DNA of 64,000 nucleotides from contig JAJDAT010000005.1 of the NCBI GenBank assembly GCA_029261715.1, positions 256,487 to 320,486 on the forward strand, written 5' to 3'. Numbering within the stretch: the stretch's first letter is position 1; every line of letters begins with the position of its first letter. This document shows, in pieces, positions 1,514 to 8,935 of the stretch. The stretch is from Nitrospinia bacterium (lineage in GTDB: Bacteria; Nitrospinota; Nitrospinia; Nitrospinales; JAJDAT01). A program made the translations under genes and the position numbers. The notes below the pieces were generated by a model, which worked only from the letters and a program-made list of their open reading frames with translations, was not told the DNA's origin and ran no database searches.

Positions 1514-2404
1514 TTAACCAAAATTCAAAAGTTCATGAGTCATAAGTAAATCCGCTACTGGATTGGCAATCGTTCGTGGAGACGACACTAAAAAAATTTC
1601 TTCATACACTCCTTCTAAATTCCCTAGGGCCGTCATCTTTTGTTCTTGGGCAAAAGATTGGCTGACAAAATCAGGCAAAGCGACGAGTCCCATTCCCCTG
1701 CTAGCCATTAATTTCTGAACGCTAGTATCTTGAGTTTCCATTACTACCTCAATATTAATTTGATTAGAACGGAAATAGTGATCTAAGTCGTGGCGACGTT
1801 TGCTGTGAAATGTGGGCAGTAAGAAGGGCTGGCCTTGAAGGGATTTTGGAAATCCTTTTTTAAGATGGAGAAAACCTTGCGTCCCAAAAACTGATAGCGG
1901 ATGTCGTCCTAATGATCGAATAGAGAAGCGACGCAAATCTCCTACGTCGGGTTGATAGTCGGCAACTACAAGGTCGACTCTATGTGAAAGCAACTCTCGA
2001 AACAAGAGATCCCCTGTGCCTTCTAGAACCGTTATGGTACATGGTCCCCATGTTAAGGCTGCATCGGTAAGGTGTCGGATTACTGTTTTCGGGATGCTGT
2101 CAAGAACTCCAATTTCCAAATGAACTTTTCGCAAAAAAGATCCCGCCTGCAACACTTCTTTAAGTTCGTCGCCTAAACCAAAAATCTGATTGGCAAACTC
2201 CAAAGTGACCTGGCCTGCCTGAGTTAGTATGAGTCTGCGGTTTTTTCGTTCAAATAAAAGATGCCCCAATTGCTCTTCCAATTGCTTGATTTGAATGCTG
2301 ATGGCAGGTTGGCCCAAGTTTAGCTTTCCTGATGCTTTGGCAATGCTACCTTCCTGAGCTACCACTTGGAAGTAATGTAAATGCTGATAATTCAACCAAA
2401 TCAT
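1514..2404 (-). CDS. LysR-family transcriptional regulator, NhaR-like
   Basis: This is a DNA-binding regulator of the LysR family. Residues 1-65 form the winged helix-turn-helix (ASGKLNLGQPAISIQIKQLE), followed by the effector-binding domain to residue 296. The opening NYQHLHYFQVVAQEGSI resembles NhaR, the activator of Na+/H+ antiporter genes, rather than generic LysR proteins. No antiporter gene is adjacent. It is divergent from the small repeat protein at 2548, and LysR regulators usually control the divergent neighbour. The intergenic region holds one copy of a ~77-bp element that recurs upstream of the hlyD-like gene, so both units may be its targets (inference). Confidence 0.87.
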   Translation of the reverse strand: MIWLNYQHLHYFQVVAQEGSIAKASGKLNLGQPAISIQIKQLEEQLGHLLFERKNRRLILTQAGQVTLEFANQIFGLGDELKEVLQAGSFLRKVHLEIGVLDSIPKTVIRHLTDAALTWGPCTITVLEGTGDLLFRELLSHRVDLVVADYQPDVGDLRRFSIRSLGRHPLSVFGTQGFLHLKKGFPKSLQGQPFLLPTFHSKRRHDLDHYFRSNQINIEVVMETQDTSVQKLMASRGMGLVALPDFVSQSFAQEQKMTALGNLEGVYEEIFLVSSPRTIANPVADLLMTHELLNFG

Positions 2405-2547: not shown

Positions 2548-2898
2548 ATGTACAGACAAACGAAGGTCTTGATGGCAATGTTAGTATCGCTGTGTTTTCT
2601 GGTGACACCTATGTTGGCGTTTGCTGGAGGTTACCCTCAGGGCGATAATTCCGCTGCTAATGTCGGTGTTCCAAAAGGATGGGTACCAAAGGTTGAGGGG
2701 CAATCTGGCAGGAAACCTGGCGGGAATAAGTTTCCTCCGGGCGACAACTCTGCCGCTAATGTTGGTGTTCCAAAGGCCTGGGAACCTACCTCGGAGGCAG
2801 CCAGTTGGGGGTCGAGCGGTTCGCAAAGTAGCAGGCTACCAAAAGAAGGCAACGACCGCGCCAATGTGGGAGTTCCTAAAGTCTGGATGCCTAAGTAA
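2548..2898 (+). CDS. Small secreted protein with three NVGVPK-type repeats
   Basis: The ORF track starts at 2503, but ATG 2548 has AGGGAGA just upstream and gives a clean Sec signal peptide (MYRQTK..., hydrophobic core, cleavage near AFAGG). The 116-aa precursor has three imperfect repeats: GDNSAANVGVPKGWVPK, GDNSAANVGVPKAWEPT and GNDRANVGVPKVWMPK, joined by Gly/Ser/Pro-rich linkers. There are no cysteines in the mature part and no known catalytic motif. It sits between a LysR regulator and a HlyD/TolC/ABC operon and shares the duplicated upstream element with that operon. Function is unknown. It could be a processed peptide precursor or a periplasmic partner of the exporter. Confidence 0.8.
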   Translation: MYRQTKVLMAMLVSLCFLVTPMLAFAGGYPQGDNSAANVGVPKGWVPKVEGQSGRKPGGNKFPPGDNSAANVGVPKAWEPTSEAASWGSSGSQSSRLPKEGNDRANVGVPKVWMPK

Positions 2899-3413: not shown

Positions 3414-4841
3414 ATGACCGAACAAAAATTGGAAAAAATTCCAGCTATTGACGAGTCTGACCAGAAATATAGTGGGTTTACCGAGGATTTATTGGCTAGT
3501 AACAAGCCGTTAAAATCTAAAAACTTAGTCAAAATTCCTCGACGTTTGTACACGTGGTCACGATTCGCTCTCATTTTCTTTTTATTTTTTGCGACTATTG
3601 TGAGTTTTGTGCCTTGGACGCAGACAGTAACGGTTCAAGGCAAGCTGTCGGCATATTTCCCGGCAGAACGATCGCAAGAGATTCATGCGCAGATTAATGG
3701 GAGCATACAACATTGGCATGTCAATGAAGGAGATATGGTTAAGAAAGGGGACTTGGTTCTTGAATTGGCAGATATTAGTCCTAAGTTCATGGCTCCCGAT
3801 CTTTTGCAACGATTGGATCAATCTCGTGAAGCGTTGGAGCAACAACGACAAGCAGCCTTGGAGCGCGCAAAAATCTTTGCGGACCGAATAGATGAAATGA
3901 GGGCCTTGGCCGAAGCGGCTACAGGTTCGGCCGAGGCCAGAGTATCCGAAGCTGACAATAAAGTGATAGGTACAGAGTTACAAGCGACTCCAGCCAAAGG
4001 AGCTGAGGAAACCGCCGCGTTAAATTTAGAACGATCGCGTTTGCTTGAAGCGCAGGGATTAATCTCAAGACGCGAATTGGAACTTGCTATTCAAGCGACA
4101 AAGGAAGCTGAGGCAGGTTTGAAAGCGAATGAAGCTAAGTTACGCGAAGTTCAAGAAGGGCGCCGCGCTTTAGCTTACAATCGTGAAAAAATCGACGCTG
4201 AGTTGGTGCAAAGTTTATTAAATACTAGATCAAAGCGAGCCTCGGCGCTTAGTGATGCCGCCAAAGCTTCGAAGGAATTAGCTGATTTAGAATTGACTCG
4301 ATCTATTGTGGTTCAGAGACGTGTTGCCAGCCGCGTTATCGCTCCTCTTGATGGAACGATAGTGCGTTTGACGCCAATTGGTCCTAGTGAAATCGTGCAT
4401 CCAGGAGATTTGTTGTTTACCATTGTGCCCAAGAGTCCAACGCCAGCGGTTGAAATGTGGGCGAATGACATTGACGCTCCTCTCCTGAGACAAGGCCGCC
4501 CAGTTCGGCTACTTTTTCAAGGAGTCCCTGCTATTCCTCTTCCGGCATGGCCGGAATTGATGGCTGGTACTTATGACGGTTTTATTCAAGTGGTGGATCA
4601 ATCCGCATCGGCAAATGGACAGTTTCGTTTATGGGTAGTACCCGATACTCAACGTCGAAAATGGCCGCCTCAGTTACATGTACGGCAGGGAACGCAGGTG
4701 ATGGGCTGGGTGATCTTAAATCGAGTTCCTTTGTGGTATGAGATGTGGCGCCGTTTTAATTTGTTCCCAGCAGACTATAAATCAGGCAGTAGAAGTTTGA
4801 TGGACGTCTTTTTGTCAAAAGCTGGACGACCGGGTAAGTAA
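3414..4841 (+). CDS. HlyD-family periplasmic adaptor (membrane fusion protein)
   Basis: This adaptor would connect an inner-membrane transporter to a TolC-type channel. Residues 1-48 are cytoplasmic and one membrane segment follows (FALIFFLFFATIVSFVPW). A lipoyl-like half motif (NGSIQHWHVNEGDMVKKGD) comes next, then a long coiled-coil hairpin to about residue 290. The second lipoyl half (SRVIAPLDGTIVRL) and a beta-barrel region complete it. Length (475 aa) is typical. There is no clear Shine-Dalgarno before ATG 3414. A possible short ORF (3358-3414) ends in a TAATG overlap and could couple translation. The TolC-like gene follows after 66 bp. Confidence 0.87.
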   Translation: MTEQKLEKIPAIDESDQKYSGFTEDLLASNKPLKSKNLVKIPRRLYTWSRFALIFFLFFATIVSFVPWTQTVTVQGKLSAYFPAERSQEIHAQINGSIQHWHVNEGDMVKKGDLVLELADISPKFMAPDLLQRLDQSREALEQQRQAALERAKIFADRIDEMRALAEAATGSAEARVSEADNKVIGTELQATPAKGAEETAALNLERSRLLEAQGLISRRELELAIQATKEAEAGLKANEAKLREVQEGRRALAYNREKIDAELVQSLLNTRSKRASALSDAAKASKELADLELTRSIVVQRRVASRVIAPLDGTIVRLTPIGPSEIVHPGDLLFTIVPKSPTPAVEMWANDIDAPLLRQGRPVRLLFQGVPAIPLPAWPELMAGTYDGFIQVVDQSASANGQFRLWVVPDTQRRKWPPQLHVRQGTQVMGWVILNRVPLWYEMWRRFNLFPADYKSGSRSLMDVFLSKAGRPGK

Positions 4842-4907: not shown

Positions 4908-6365
4908 ATGAGAGGTAAGCAAATTGCTGTTGTGGGGGCGTTGATTCTATTTACCGCCGCTCCTCTGTGGGCAAAAGAAATTTTGCAAATGTCTCTAAAT
5001 AAAACTCCGACTTCAATTCTGACCCTCCAGTCGGTGTTAAAACGGGTGGAAGAAGGACACCCGCTTCTACGAGGAAGCCAAACGGAAAAGATGGTGGCTA
5101 GCGGTAAACTGCTTAAGGCTTTGGGGCAATTTGAACCCACTTTTGTTAACGATTTTGAATTGGAACGGCTTGCAAAAGATGATCGAACTAAGAGCGTTGG
5201 ATTTAATGACACGTTTGTGGAGATGCTTCATCCATGGGGCATCAGAGGGTTTGCCGGTTTTCGAACTGGGATTGGCGATGTAAAACCAGCAGATTTAGGT
5301 ATTAATGATTCCAATCAGCCTTTGTTAGGTATCGCAATTCCCCTTCTTCGAGGATTAATGACAAATCGGGCTAGCGCCAAATTAAAGAAATCCTCGCTGG
5401 CGGAAAAACAAGCGAATCTGCAAATCCAGCAAGCGCGGCAAGATTTGTATCTTGGCGCCGCAAGACAATATTGGAATTGGGTGGCGGCATGGAAGCTTAT
5501 GGATTTACAAAAAAATGCGGTTGCTGTGGCGCAAGAACGTCTAGTCCAATTAACGAAACAAGTCGAAGCTGGCGCAAGAGCAAAGTTTGATATCGTCGAA
5601 GCAAACCAAGAAGTGCAACGGAGAAGAGATAAACTAATTAAGACGAGACGCAAGGTTGATGAAGAGCAATTTAAACTCGCGTTGTTCTTGTGGGAAAACG
5701 ACAACTTAATTGTTCCCGATAATTATAAGGCTCCCTTATTCCCATTAACGCAACTAGATAATTCATTAACTGCATTAGAGAGAGGTAAACGGCGCGCTGT
5801 CACACTCCGTCCGGAATTACATTTAGTGAGTTTGGAAGCTGAGTTTAATCATATCGATTTAGAGGTTGCAGAAAATAATTTACTTCCAGATCTGTCTGTA
5901 GAGGTTGAGCCCTCCAGGAAGCCAGACGAGTTTGTCTTGGGTCTGGGGTATCGATTTGGAGTTAAATTTAGTATGCCGTTTTTTCAGCGTGGAGCTCGCG
6001 GAGATCTTCTCAAGAAGAGGGGCAAAGCTCAACGGTTAAGGCTTCTTCAGCGGTATCGACTAAAACAAGTGACGATGGATGTGGCGAACGCTACTTCAGC
6101 CGTTATGCGCGCTGATGAGCGCATTAAAGTTTTGCAGAAGTCCCTTGAATTTGCGCAAAAATTAGAAAAGGGAGAACGCACTCGTTTGAAACTAGGCGCT
6201 ACGACTTTGCTCATTGTTAATCTTCGAGAGCGTAATGTTCTTAAAGCCGCCGAGGGGCTTATAACAGTTAAAGCCGATTATCAAAAAGCCCTTGCCTTAT
6301 ATAAATGGTCGACCGGGGAGTGGGTGAATGGATCATCTCCTATTGACGATCAGAGGAGGCAATAG
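4908..6365 (+). CDS. TolC-family outer-membrane efflux protein
   Basis: This is the outer-membrane channel of the exporter. It has an N-terminal signal peptide (MRGKQIAVVGALILF..., cut near LWAKE) and two long helical OEP repeats rich in heptad patterns (around residues 165-250 and 370-460). AGAGGAGA precedes the ATG. Length (485 aa) fits the TolC family. Its end is followed at once by the ABC gene, whose ribosome-binding site lies inside the last codons of this ORF, so hlyD-like, tolC-like and ABC form one operon. Substrate is unknown. Confidence 0.85.
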   Translation: MRGKQIAVVGALILFTAAPLWAKEILQMSLNKTPTSILTLQSVLKRVEEGHPLLRGSQTEKMVASGKLLKALGQFEPTFVNDFELERLAKDDRTKSVGFNDTFVEMLHPWGIRGFAGFRTGIGDVKPADLGINDSNQPLLGIAIPLLRGLMTNRASAKLKKSSLAEKQANLQIQQARQDLYLGAARQYWNWVAAWKLMDLQKNAVAVAQERLVQLTKQVEAGARAKFDIVEANQEVQRRRDKLIKTRRKVDEEQFKLALFLWENDNLIVPDNYKAPLFPLTQLDNSLTALERGKRRAVTLRPELHLVSLEAEFNHIDLEVAENNLLPDLSVEVEPSRKPDEFVLGLGYRFGVKFSMPFFQRGARGDLLKKRGKAQRLRLLQRYRLKQVTMDVANATSAVMRADERIKVLQKSLEFAQKLEKGERTRLKLGATTLLIVNLRERNVLKAAEGLITVKADYQKALALYKWSTGEWVNGSSPIDDQRRQ

Positions 6366-6372
6366 CAAAATT

Positions 6373-8028
6373 ATGACTGTTCCTTCTCTAAGAGAAAACC
6401 TGGATCGCCTTGGTTCCTTTCTGAGTCAAGACCGCTCTATTATTTTACCGATTTTTACCTACGCTATTGTGGTTGGTTTGTTTTCTCTTATTATTCCTTT
6501 AACGGTCCAGGAATTAGTAAACACGTTTGCATTTGCTATATCTCCCGTAATGGTCGTTACGCTTGTTGGCATTATGGCTGGCATCCTATTGTTTGTGGGA
6601 ATATTCAAAATTTTGCAATTCTACGCGATGGACATTCTGGAAAGGCGAATCTTTGTTCGCATGGCTCTAAGGCTGGCCCAGGTGTTGCCGCAATTTAAAG
6701 AGAAAACATTTCGATCTGATTCTGTAAATCTTTTTCTTGAAACGGTGTTTCTCCAAAGGTCTCTTTCTAGTCTCTTTGTGGATCTTATAAATGTGTTGGT
6801 TGGCGGGTTTATTGGAATGACCTTGCTCGCTTTGTATCACCCATATTTTGTGTTCTTTGACGTCGCGTTAATTTTATCCGTGATTATTATCGGAATTTTA
6901 GGGAAAGGTGGTTTGGGAAGAACGATTCACATGTCTGAAACAAAATATGAAACGTTTCATTGGTTCCAAGAAGTTGCCGATAACCTTTTGCATTTCAAAG
7001 CCGCTAATTGTTCAAATCTTATTCTGCAAAAAGTCGATACATTAGCGGAGGATTATGTTCGAGCGCGTCAATCTCGGTTTAGCGTTTTGTTGCGCCAATA
7101 TATCGGTTCTATTTCGCTCCAAGTTTTTCTACACACGGGATTGTTAGGAACTGCCGGATGGTTATTAAGTCAAGATGAATTGACCTTGGGGCAACTAGTT
7201 GCGGCAGAAGTGATAATCGCCAGTTTGCTTCTTAACATTGATTCGGTAATGAAACGTTCGTACGTCGTGTTTTATTTTTTCACGGCTTTAGCTGAACTCG
7301 ATCATTTATTTTCTTTGCCTCAAGATAAAGCGGGCAATGAATCGGGTCTATCCGTTCCTCAGTCCGATGCCGCTGGGCTGCATCTTAAATGCAACCAATT
7401 GAATTGGGAGAGCGACACAGAGTCGCTTCCTAAAGAAATTTCTTTTGAAGCTTTTCCAGGAGAAAAATGGGCGTTGATATGTGGGACCGAATGGGCGCGT
7501 AAACACGTATCGTTATTATTAGCAGGTTTAGATCAACCTTCATCGGGGGCTGTGAAATATAATGAGGTTGATTTAAGAAACCTCTCTACGGATCAAATTG
7601 GTTCCCAGCGAAGCATTCTTTTTTCGCGAGATCTCACCTTATTTAAAGGATCGGTAGTTGAGAATATCAAGATGGGACGGCCAGGCATAGAATCCGAAGA
7701 TTTGTTATGGGCGTTATCTTTTTCGCAATTAGATAAAGAACTCGAAGCATTTCCCGATGGTTTAGAAACGATTGTCCATGAAGGCGGTAAAGAGTTCACT
7801 CTCAGCCAACGTTTAAGAATTTTGTTGGCAAGAGCGATAGTCACGCGCCCGTCTCTTTTGATTTTAGATGGAGCTATGCAGGAAGTTCCCGATGATATCC
7901 GAGAAACCCTTTTGCATCGCCTTAGTTCTAGCGATTGCCCTTGGACGTTGATCATTGTCACCACAGACCAACGTGCAAAAACTTTTGTTGATAAGCATTT
8001 ATCCCTTTCTGATCTCTCACAGGAATAA
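6373..8028 (+). CDS. ABC exporter-like protein with a degenerate ATPase domain
   Basis: The start is placed at ATG 6373 (551 aa), since AGAGGAGG at 6352-6359 precedes it; the ORF track's 6328 start overlaps the tolC-like gene. The N-terminal half has about six membrane segments of the type-I exporter fold. The C-terminal half aligns to an ABC ATPase but lacks catalytic residues. Walker A reads GTEWARKHV instead of GxxGxGK[ST], the signature is FTLSQ instead of LSGGQ, the Walker B glutamate is Gly (LLILDGAM), and the H-loop histidine is absent. The reading frame is intact over its full length, so it looks maintained rather than decaying. It may need a separate ATPase or act as a non-ATP-driven channel. 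There is no C39 peptidase domain. Confidence 0.85.
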   Translation: MTVPSLRENLDRLGSFLSQDRSIILPIFTYAIVVGLFSLIIPLTVQELVNTFAFAISPVMVVTLVGIMAGILLFVGIFKILQFYAMDILERRIFVRMALRLAQVLPQFKEKTFRSDSVNLFLETVFLQRSLSSLFVDLINVLVGGFIGMTLLALYHPYFVFFDVALILSVIIIGILGKGGLGRTIHMSETKYETFHWFQEVADNLLHFKAANCSNLILQKVDTLAEDYVRARQSRFSVLLRQYIGSISLQVFLHTGLLGTAGWLLSQDELTLGQLVAAEVIIASLLLNIDSVMKRSYVVFYFFTALAELDHLFSLPQDKAGNESGLSVPQSDAAGLHLKCNQLNWESDTESLPKEISFEAFPGEKWALICGTEWARKHVSLLLAGLDQPSSGAVKYNEVDLRNLSTDQIGSQRSILFSRDLTLFKGSVVENIKMGRPGIESEDLLWALSFSQLDKELEAFPDGLETIVHEGGKEFTLSQRLRILLARAIVTRPSLLILDGAMQEVPDDIRETLLHRLSSSDCPWTLIIVTTDQRAKTFVDKHLSLSDLSQE

Positions 8029-8270: not shown

Positions 8271-8446
8271 TAAATCCCACAATCTCTTTTTAAAAGGTGA
8301 GAATTGATATTTTGTATGCGAAAATAAATCTTCGTGAAGTTTATTGTTAGATTTAAAATTACTTGTGAGATGGTTTTATGGCCGATGAAAAACTAGTGGA
8401 GCTGTTAAAAGAGGGCCCAGAAAAATTTAACGAGAGTGGAGTGGTA

Positions 8447-8935
8447 ATGATGAATGGTATTTCTAAACTGACATTTCTTCTAGCTGTAGTTTTATTGATG
8501 TCTGGATGTGTCAATCGAGTTGGGGCAAACTGGCATGCGACCTCGAATATAAACAATATCAAATCATTTTACGTTATCAAGTTTGCCCCTGATGGCAGAG
8601 GTATTAATAAACTAATTGTCAATAGATTGAGAGTTATGGGGTTTGAAGCTACAACAGGTTTAAGTTCGGCAATACCGCCTACTGTGGATGTTGTGGTTGA
8701 TTACTCAGACAGGTGGAGATGGGATCTCACTATGTATATGCTTGAACTCACAATTAATCTCAGAAACCCAAAAACAAATGCTCTTTTAGGGGATGGAAAC
8801 TCTTATCATACGTCTTTGACTAGACAACCCCCAGAGAAAATGGTGGAGGAGGTTCTGGACAATGTTTTCTCAAGAGCTAAGGGAGGCGAGATTGTGCAAC
8901 TACCACCTTATATTCCTGAAGATTACGAAGAATAG
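8447..8935 (+). CDS. Putative lipoprotein of unknown function
   Basis: The ORF track begins at 8378, but ATG 8447 (or 8450) follows GAGTGGAG and places a hydrophobic signal with lipobox LMSGC near the N-terminus, so the shorter form (162 aa) is preferred. The mature protein has a mixed alpha/beta pattern with a basic first half, the stretch VDVVVDYSDRWRWDL and a C-terminal PPEKMVEEVLDNVF helix. This loosely recalls small DUF4136-type lipoproteins, but I cannot confirm the family. It is a single gene between dispersed repeats, and probably sits in the periplasmic face of a membrane. Confidence 0.7.
   Translation: MMNGISKLTFLLAVVLLMSGCVNRVGANWHATSNINNIKSFYVIKFAPDGRGINKLIVNRLRVMGFEATTGLSSAIPPTVDVVVDYSDRWRWDLTMYMLELTINLRNPKTNALLGDGNSYHTSLTRQPPEKMVEEVLDNVFSRAKGGEIVQLPPYIPEDYEE

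Follow-up and report, generated by a model that had tools for sequence, protein, structure and literature searches.

ATP-binding cassette (ABC) exporters are taught as ATP-driven machines. SbmA departs from this scheme, in that the membrane part of such an exporter can become a secondary transporter; there, the end point alone is known. The SbmA-like transporters (SLiPT) are described as lacking both the nucleotide-binding domain (NBD) and the coupling helices; they use a glutamate ladder and derive from a full-length ABC ancestor (PMC13316013). Here, we describe an ABC-exporter-like gene located at positions 6373–8028 of a 64,000-nucleotide stretch of contig JAJDAT010000005.1 from a Nitrospinia bacterium (this whole stretch is called the window below). 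The protein it encodes is, to judge from its sequence, almost certainly unable to hydrolyse ATP and maintained in that state. On balance, and with moderate confidence, we favor the reading that it belongs to a non-hydrolysing, maintained family of exporters that would be driven by another source of energy, most likely protons, as in SbmA/BacA. The gene is the last of a three-gene operon.

3414–4841, forward strand: HlyD-type periplasmic adaptor.
4908–6365, forward strand: TolC-type outer-membrane channel.
6373–8028, forward strand: ABC-exporter-like inner-membrane subunit of 551 amino acids with a non-catalytic NBD (by Pfam/NCBIfam and alignment with relatives).
6373–7320, forward strand: membrane domain (TMD), residues 1–316, encoded on its own in three other genomes.
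7408–8007, forward strand: dead NBD, residues 346–545, folded in the AlphaFold2 (AF2) model (predicted local distance difference test, pLDDT, mostly 80–90).

The reading frame of the ABC gene is open throughout with no interruption, and the intact HlyD and TolC genes lie upstream on the same strand, the TolC gene ending 7 bases before the ABC gene. An earlier note, made from the DNA alone, had described the frame, the membrane half and the operon partners as kept, and all three descriptions are borne out. Pfam finds a single family in the 551-residue protein, a weak match to ABC_tran (34 bits). Its best full-length NCBIfam models are those of type I secretion (T1SS) and NHLM exporters, all far under their cut-offs; the best hidden Markov model match, TIGR03375, scores 127.8 bits against a cut-off of 693.1. 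The AF2 model (pLDDT 73.6) displays the fold of a type IV ABC half-transporter, and a Foldseek search with it returned TM287/288 as the top match (E = 7e-21), with PCAT1 (E = 1e-20) and HlyB among the best.

Alignment of the window protein with intact exporters, which set the motif positions, shows that the ATPase site is altered at each of the following elements.

7480–7503, forward strand: degenerate Walker A, residues 370–377, CGTEWARK.
7621–7623, forward strand: Q-loop, Gln replaced by Phe417.
7795–7809, forward strand: degenerate ABC signature, residues 475–479, FTLSQ in place of LSGGQ.
7855–7872, forward strand: Walker B, catalytic Glu replaced by Gly500 (Gly in 47/47 sequences of alignment A2).
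7963–7965, forward strand: H-loop, His replaced by Thr531.

The three glycines and the lysine of the Walker A consensus GxxGxGK[ST] are gone, the lysine having become R376; the segment reads C370, E373, A375, R376 and K377 at the informative positions, with K377 occupying the place of the Ser/Thr. The Walker B aspartate, Asp499, is retained. The losses that the earlier note had read in Walker A, the signature, the Walker B glutamate and the H-loop histidine are thus upheld, and that of the Q-loop is to be added to them; the register in which Walker A had been read was off by one residue.

We then located relatives of the protein. A scan of 84,980 species genomes gave 80 loci at about 40–72% identity to the window protein. 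The family member is dead and its frame open in 80/80 of these loci, and six Nitrospinales orthologues (64–70% identity) display the same motif losses as the window protein. The loci are labelled Nitrospinaceae, Nitrospirales/Nitrospira or Nitrococcus, save for a few apparent mixed bins, and the clade at 39–72% identity is nearly limited to nitrite oxidisers (Nitrospinota, Nitrospira and Nitrococcus). The apparent mixed bins are L063, L078, L080 and L117, labelled Armatimonadetes, Acidimicrobiia and Nitrosospira; L063 equals the Nitrospirae locus L062 of the same sample in its identity to the window protein and in its motifs. The family as a whole is not restricted to nitrite oxidisers, for a remoter branch exists in Bacteroidota and other Pseudomonadota. 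A tblastn search of plasmids found full-length relatives at 24–28% identity in Persicobacter, Aureibacter, Novosphingobium and Croceicoccus, which are also dead and are followed by the HlyD and TolC genes, and 11/399 Pseudomonadota genomes carry a member, the ten outside Nitrococcus all being dead with HlyD beside each. HlyD and TolC genes are present in most family loci.

The same losses recur throughout the 119 distinct members that carry an NBD. The Q-loop Gln, the SGG of the signature and the H-loop His are each found in 0/119; the catalytic glutamate (position 500) occurs in a single protein (L199), which lacks the Walker B aspartate, and a full Walker A also in a single protein (L219). 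No close relative with intact motifs is found among them. The paralogues that Nitrospira genomes carry at other sites are dead as well. L101 (11762–13438) and other Nitrospira loci contain tandem dead ABC genes followed by a gene for a conserved protein of about 263 residues, predicted to have periplasmic helices (cluster 3, 42 loci). The dead paralogues L132, L133, L134 and L135, from Nitrospira defluvii, N. moscoviensis and strain UBC2, stand without HlyD/TolC and adjoin two-component or glycosyltransferase-like genes. We found no description of the family in open-access papers and no mention of HlyD or TolC in open genome papers on N. marina and Nitrospinota.

The earlier note had suggested that another ATPase might act in trans, that is, that an intact ABC half-transporter or a free ATPase encoded elsewhere joins the dead subunit and supplies it with ATP energy. 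Intact exporters do exist in the same genomes, and exporters that are heterodimers with a single degenerate site are common (PMC7756269). In those assemblies, a composite ATP site is formed by Walker A and B of one NBD and the signature of the other (PMC7756269). The window protein can supply neither Walker A/B nor a signature, and so could complete neither composite site with an active partner. Furthermore, the neighborhood of the family loci includes no conserved intact ABC gene, and the helix through which the membrane domain would dock onto an NBD is lost in one lineage, as detailed below. The tandem second copy of the N. defluvii lineage, which might have been such an ATPase, is dead too, which removes it as a candidate. 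The suggestion is thus not supported, and we regard an ATPase in trans as quite unlikely.

In a tree that includes 27 intact exporters drawn from the family's own genomes, the dead family, together with its NBD-less members, forms one side of a branch with 100/100 support. To judge by this tree and the shared motif losses, the loss of the ATPase is common to one distinct, old family of tripartite exporters composed of an ABC-like protein, HlyD and TolC. The glutamate, the histidine and the signature are lost throughout, while traces of Walker A remain here and there in the tree. This pattern is most simply explained by one early loss of catalysis and later, repeated losses of ATP binding. The loss seems to have been stepwise, with catalysis going first, ATP binding second and the whole domain last.

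The ratio of nonsynonymous to synonymous substitution rates (dN/dS), calculated with YN00 on close pairs for the NBD and the TMD separately, is 0.02–0.26 for the NBD and 0.02–0.14 for the TMD in most pairs. It is far below 1 in nearly all of them, so the dead NBD is, by this measure, under purifying selection. Its constraint is uneven. In 47 sequences, column entropy is high in Walker A (2.15), the D-loop (1.93) and the signature (1.85) relative to the NBD mean of 1.50, and low in residues 421–437 (1.00), 442–448 (1.02) and the segment LRILLARA (0.61), with Gly500 being invariant (47/47 in alignment A2). Residues 421–448 are, by homology, the face that meets the coupling helices. Since the ATP pocket drifts while this face stays, the dead NBD seems to be maintained as a structure and not as an enzyme. 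A pseudogene or an assembly error is excluded by the open frames, the dN/dS values and the conservation. A gene in decay, in which loss of the motifs is neutral, would account for the faster change of the NBD, whose identity to the window protein is 35–65% compared to 44–78% for the TMD. The dN/dS values and the conservation already contradict that reading; open frames in the 80 other loci, the invariant Gly500 and losses common to four phyla also speak against it, and it retains next to no probability. The selection for a non-hydrolysing exporter proposed in the earlier note is therefore supported by the absence of close relatives with intact motifs and by the low dN/dS.

The last step of the loss is seen in three Nitrospirota genomes (G267, G436 and G279), in which the orthologue stops after the membrane domain and is 337–346 residues long. 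These TMD-only genes do not run off contig ends and have HlyD and TolC upstream. No NBD was found within 12 kb of them, and a search for an orphan dead NBD elsewhere in the three genomes also found none. In the tree, the TMD-only proteins fall inside the dead clade, with L053 as their neighbor. They differ from the full-length proteins at the following element.

6961–7002, forward strand: second cytoplasmic loop with coupling helix 2, residues 197–210 (the helix itself being residues 205–210 in the AF2 model); conserved where the NBD is present, degraded where it is deleted.

Over residues 196–210, the TMD-only proteins are 34% identical to full-length marine proteins, compared to 74–76% in full-length controls, and their loop also has a deletion of 1–3 residues. 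Residues 211–225 are affected less, and over the rest of the membrane domain the TMD-only proteins resemble the full-length marine proteins to about the same degree as other relatives. Among near-invariant sites, 5/8 in residues 197–214 and 11/130 elsewhere are broken in one or more of the TMD-only proteins (p = 5e-4, to be read with the fact that this region was picked after inspection); a stricter count of sites broken in all three proteins is not significant. By these comparisons, the coupling helix has decayed together with the deletion of the NBD in one lineage.

The membrane domain, in turn, carries polar residues that set the family apart from intact exporters.

6838–6840, forward strand: His156 of a YHP motif, present in 28/29 family members and 3/27 intact exporters.
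7207–7209, forward strand: Glu279 in the last membrane helix, present in 29/29 family members and 0/27 intact exporters.

The nitrite-oxidiser clade has E47, D137 and D290 in addition. Together with E279 and H156, these are candidate ion-coupling residues, their placement in the membrane being predicted. In the mechanism that we propose, the membrane domain would export its substrate through HlyD and TolC, driven by something other than ATP; protons would act on acidic residues of the membrane such as Glu279, as in SbmA/BacA; and the dead NBD would be left with the purely mechanical task of clamping the two membrane domains together. Transport by the complex without ATP is likely, and protons as the driver of export are a good guess.

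ABC exporters have also given rise to a channel, CFTR, and to a regulator, SUR. With these precedents, the protein may be pictured as a gate or sensor in the inner membrane, passive or opened by a ligand, that serves the HlyD-TolC conduit and whose NBD may bind a ligand other than ATP, and a basic residue at the Walker A lysine position in 102/119 members and the invariant Gly500 of alignment A2 would fit such a site. However, the NBD can be lost outright, and a ligand site there is thus not essential. Moreover, the membrane domain is the best conserved part and its acidic and histidine residues are specific to the family, features more in keeping with coupled transport, and we consider a gate or sensor unlikely.

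Several observations weigh against the non-hydrolysing, ion-driven exporter that we favor. GK[ST] is kept in 15/119 members and the Walker A lysine position holds K or R in the 102 mentioned above, and nucleotide binding may thus persist in some of them. A few Nitrospira paralogues stand without HlyD/TolC. The NBD dN/dS reaches 0.59 in the very close pair L075/L080, with further exceptions for the NBD (0.34 in L065/L070 and 0.31 in L060/L061) and the TMD (0.43 in L050/L052 and 0.33 in L060/L061), these exceptions being mostly pairs with few changes; some close pairs had too few changes or yielded no ratio. The AF2 model is weak around residues 272–290 (pLDDT <50), and the site of Glu279 is therefore uncertain.

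The distribution of the family overlaps in part with that of NxrA. Among 396 Nitrospirota genomes, 90 contain both a family member and NxrA, 21 the family only, 43 NxrA only and 242 neither, giving an odds ratio of 24 that is confounded by descent and incomplete bins. The NxrA of N. defluvii was located via its gene because the narG model misses periplasmic NxrA; the three genomes with TMD-only genes carry NxrA with 81–82% identity to it. The family is patchy in Nitrospinales (7/64 genomes) and occurs in 3/54 genomes of the order of Nitrococcus. Genes for DabA and its NuoL-like partner DabB adjoin family genes in L186–L188 and L044, and a beta-carbonic anhydrase gene adjoins in L045 and L046; in L107 and L108, carbonic anhydrase genes lie farther away. 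The genes of this inorganic-carbon pump lie directly downstream of the NBD-less exporter gene and in the same direction in L186 (1–5210), L187 (6518–12001) and L188 (5504–11731), and upstream of HlyD in L044. For a part played alongside inorganic-carbon uptake in autotrophic nitrite oxidisers, this loose link is no more than a lead.

Upstream of the operon of the window lies a regulator gene.

1514–2404, reverse strand: divergent LysR-type regulator, NhaR-like, which adjoins several, not all, orthologues.

Between the regulator and the operon, positions 2548–2898 (forward strand) encode a small secreted protein with three GDNSAANVGVPKxWxP repeats. Its clear homologues are limited to other places in the same genome (G000 C25 and C49), with none convincing in relatives and none beside orthologous operons, and it was rejected as a dedicated substrate. 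A small lipoprotein gene of the Sbal_3080 type follows the operon (8378–8935, forward strand).

A comparison with known systems places the family apart from each of them. The type I secretion exporters LssB, HlyB and PrtD share the HlyD-TolC operon, the best model (TIGR03375) and the HlyB/PCAT1 fold matches; the window protein, however, scores 128 bits against a cut-off of 693, has no peptidase or peptidase-like domain, has lost the ATPase motifs and belongs to a separate clade. The heterodimeric exporters TM287/288, TAP, TmrAB and BmrCD share a degenerate nucleotide site, and TM287/288 is the top fold match, but they keep one complete composite site, whereas here Walker A/B and the signature are lost, and in both copies where there are two. 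Tripartite pumps driven by the proton motive force (EmrAB-TolC and the resistance-nodulation-division, RND, pumps) would share the energy source, if our proposal is true, and have partners of the HlyD/TolC type, but their inner-membrane component has a major facilitator superfamily or RND fold and not an ABC fold.

A close parallel is SbmA/BacA, with which the family shares an ABC-exporter membrane fold without an NBD, the loss of coupling helices and, in the family-wide Glu279, a conserved membrane glutamate. The absent NBD and degraded helix hold for the three TMD-only relatives and not for the window protein. Furthermore, SLiPTs are importers without HlyD/TolC and with an extra TM0, whereas this family has HlyD and TolC as neighbors and most of its members keep a dead NBD. 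No sequence kinship to SbmA was detected, a phmmer search of the PDB with a TMD-only protein giving no match at E = 1, and neither SbmA nor YddA is among the Foldseek matches listed for the full-length model. We read the family as convergent with SbmA, and proton coupling would be common to both by analogy. What is new, as its motifs and gene neighbors indicate, is an ABC exporter variant with a dead NBD in a tripartite HlyD-TolC setting. We propose tentatively that, independently of the SbmA lineage, ABC-fold exporters in HlyD-TolC systems may have turned from ATP to an ion gradient as the driving force, and that the stages of this change, first a dead NBD retained as a clamp and later its deletion with loss of the coupling helix, can still be seen in bacteria alive today. 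The switch from primary to secondary transport could be tested here by comparing dead-NBD and NBD-less orthologues. The system is an unexamined part of the cell envelope that is common in Nitrospira, the main nitrite oxidisers. While SbmA offers the end point alone, in this family conserved intermediates stand next to the end point, across four phyla and in the company of HlyD and TolC.
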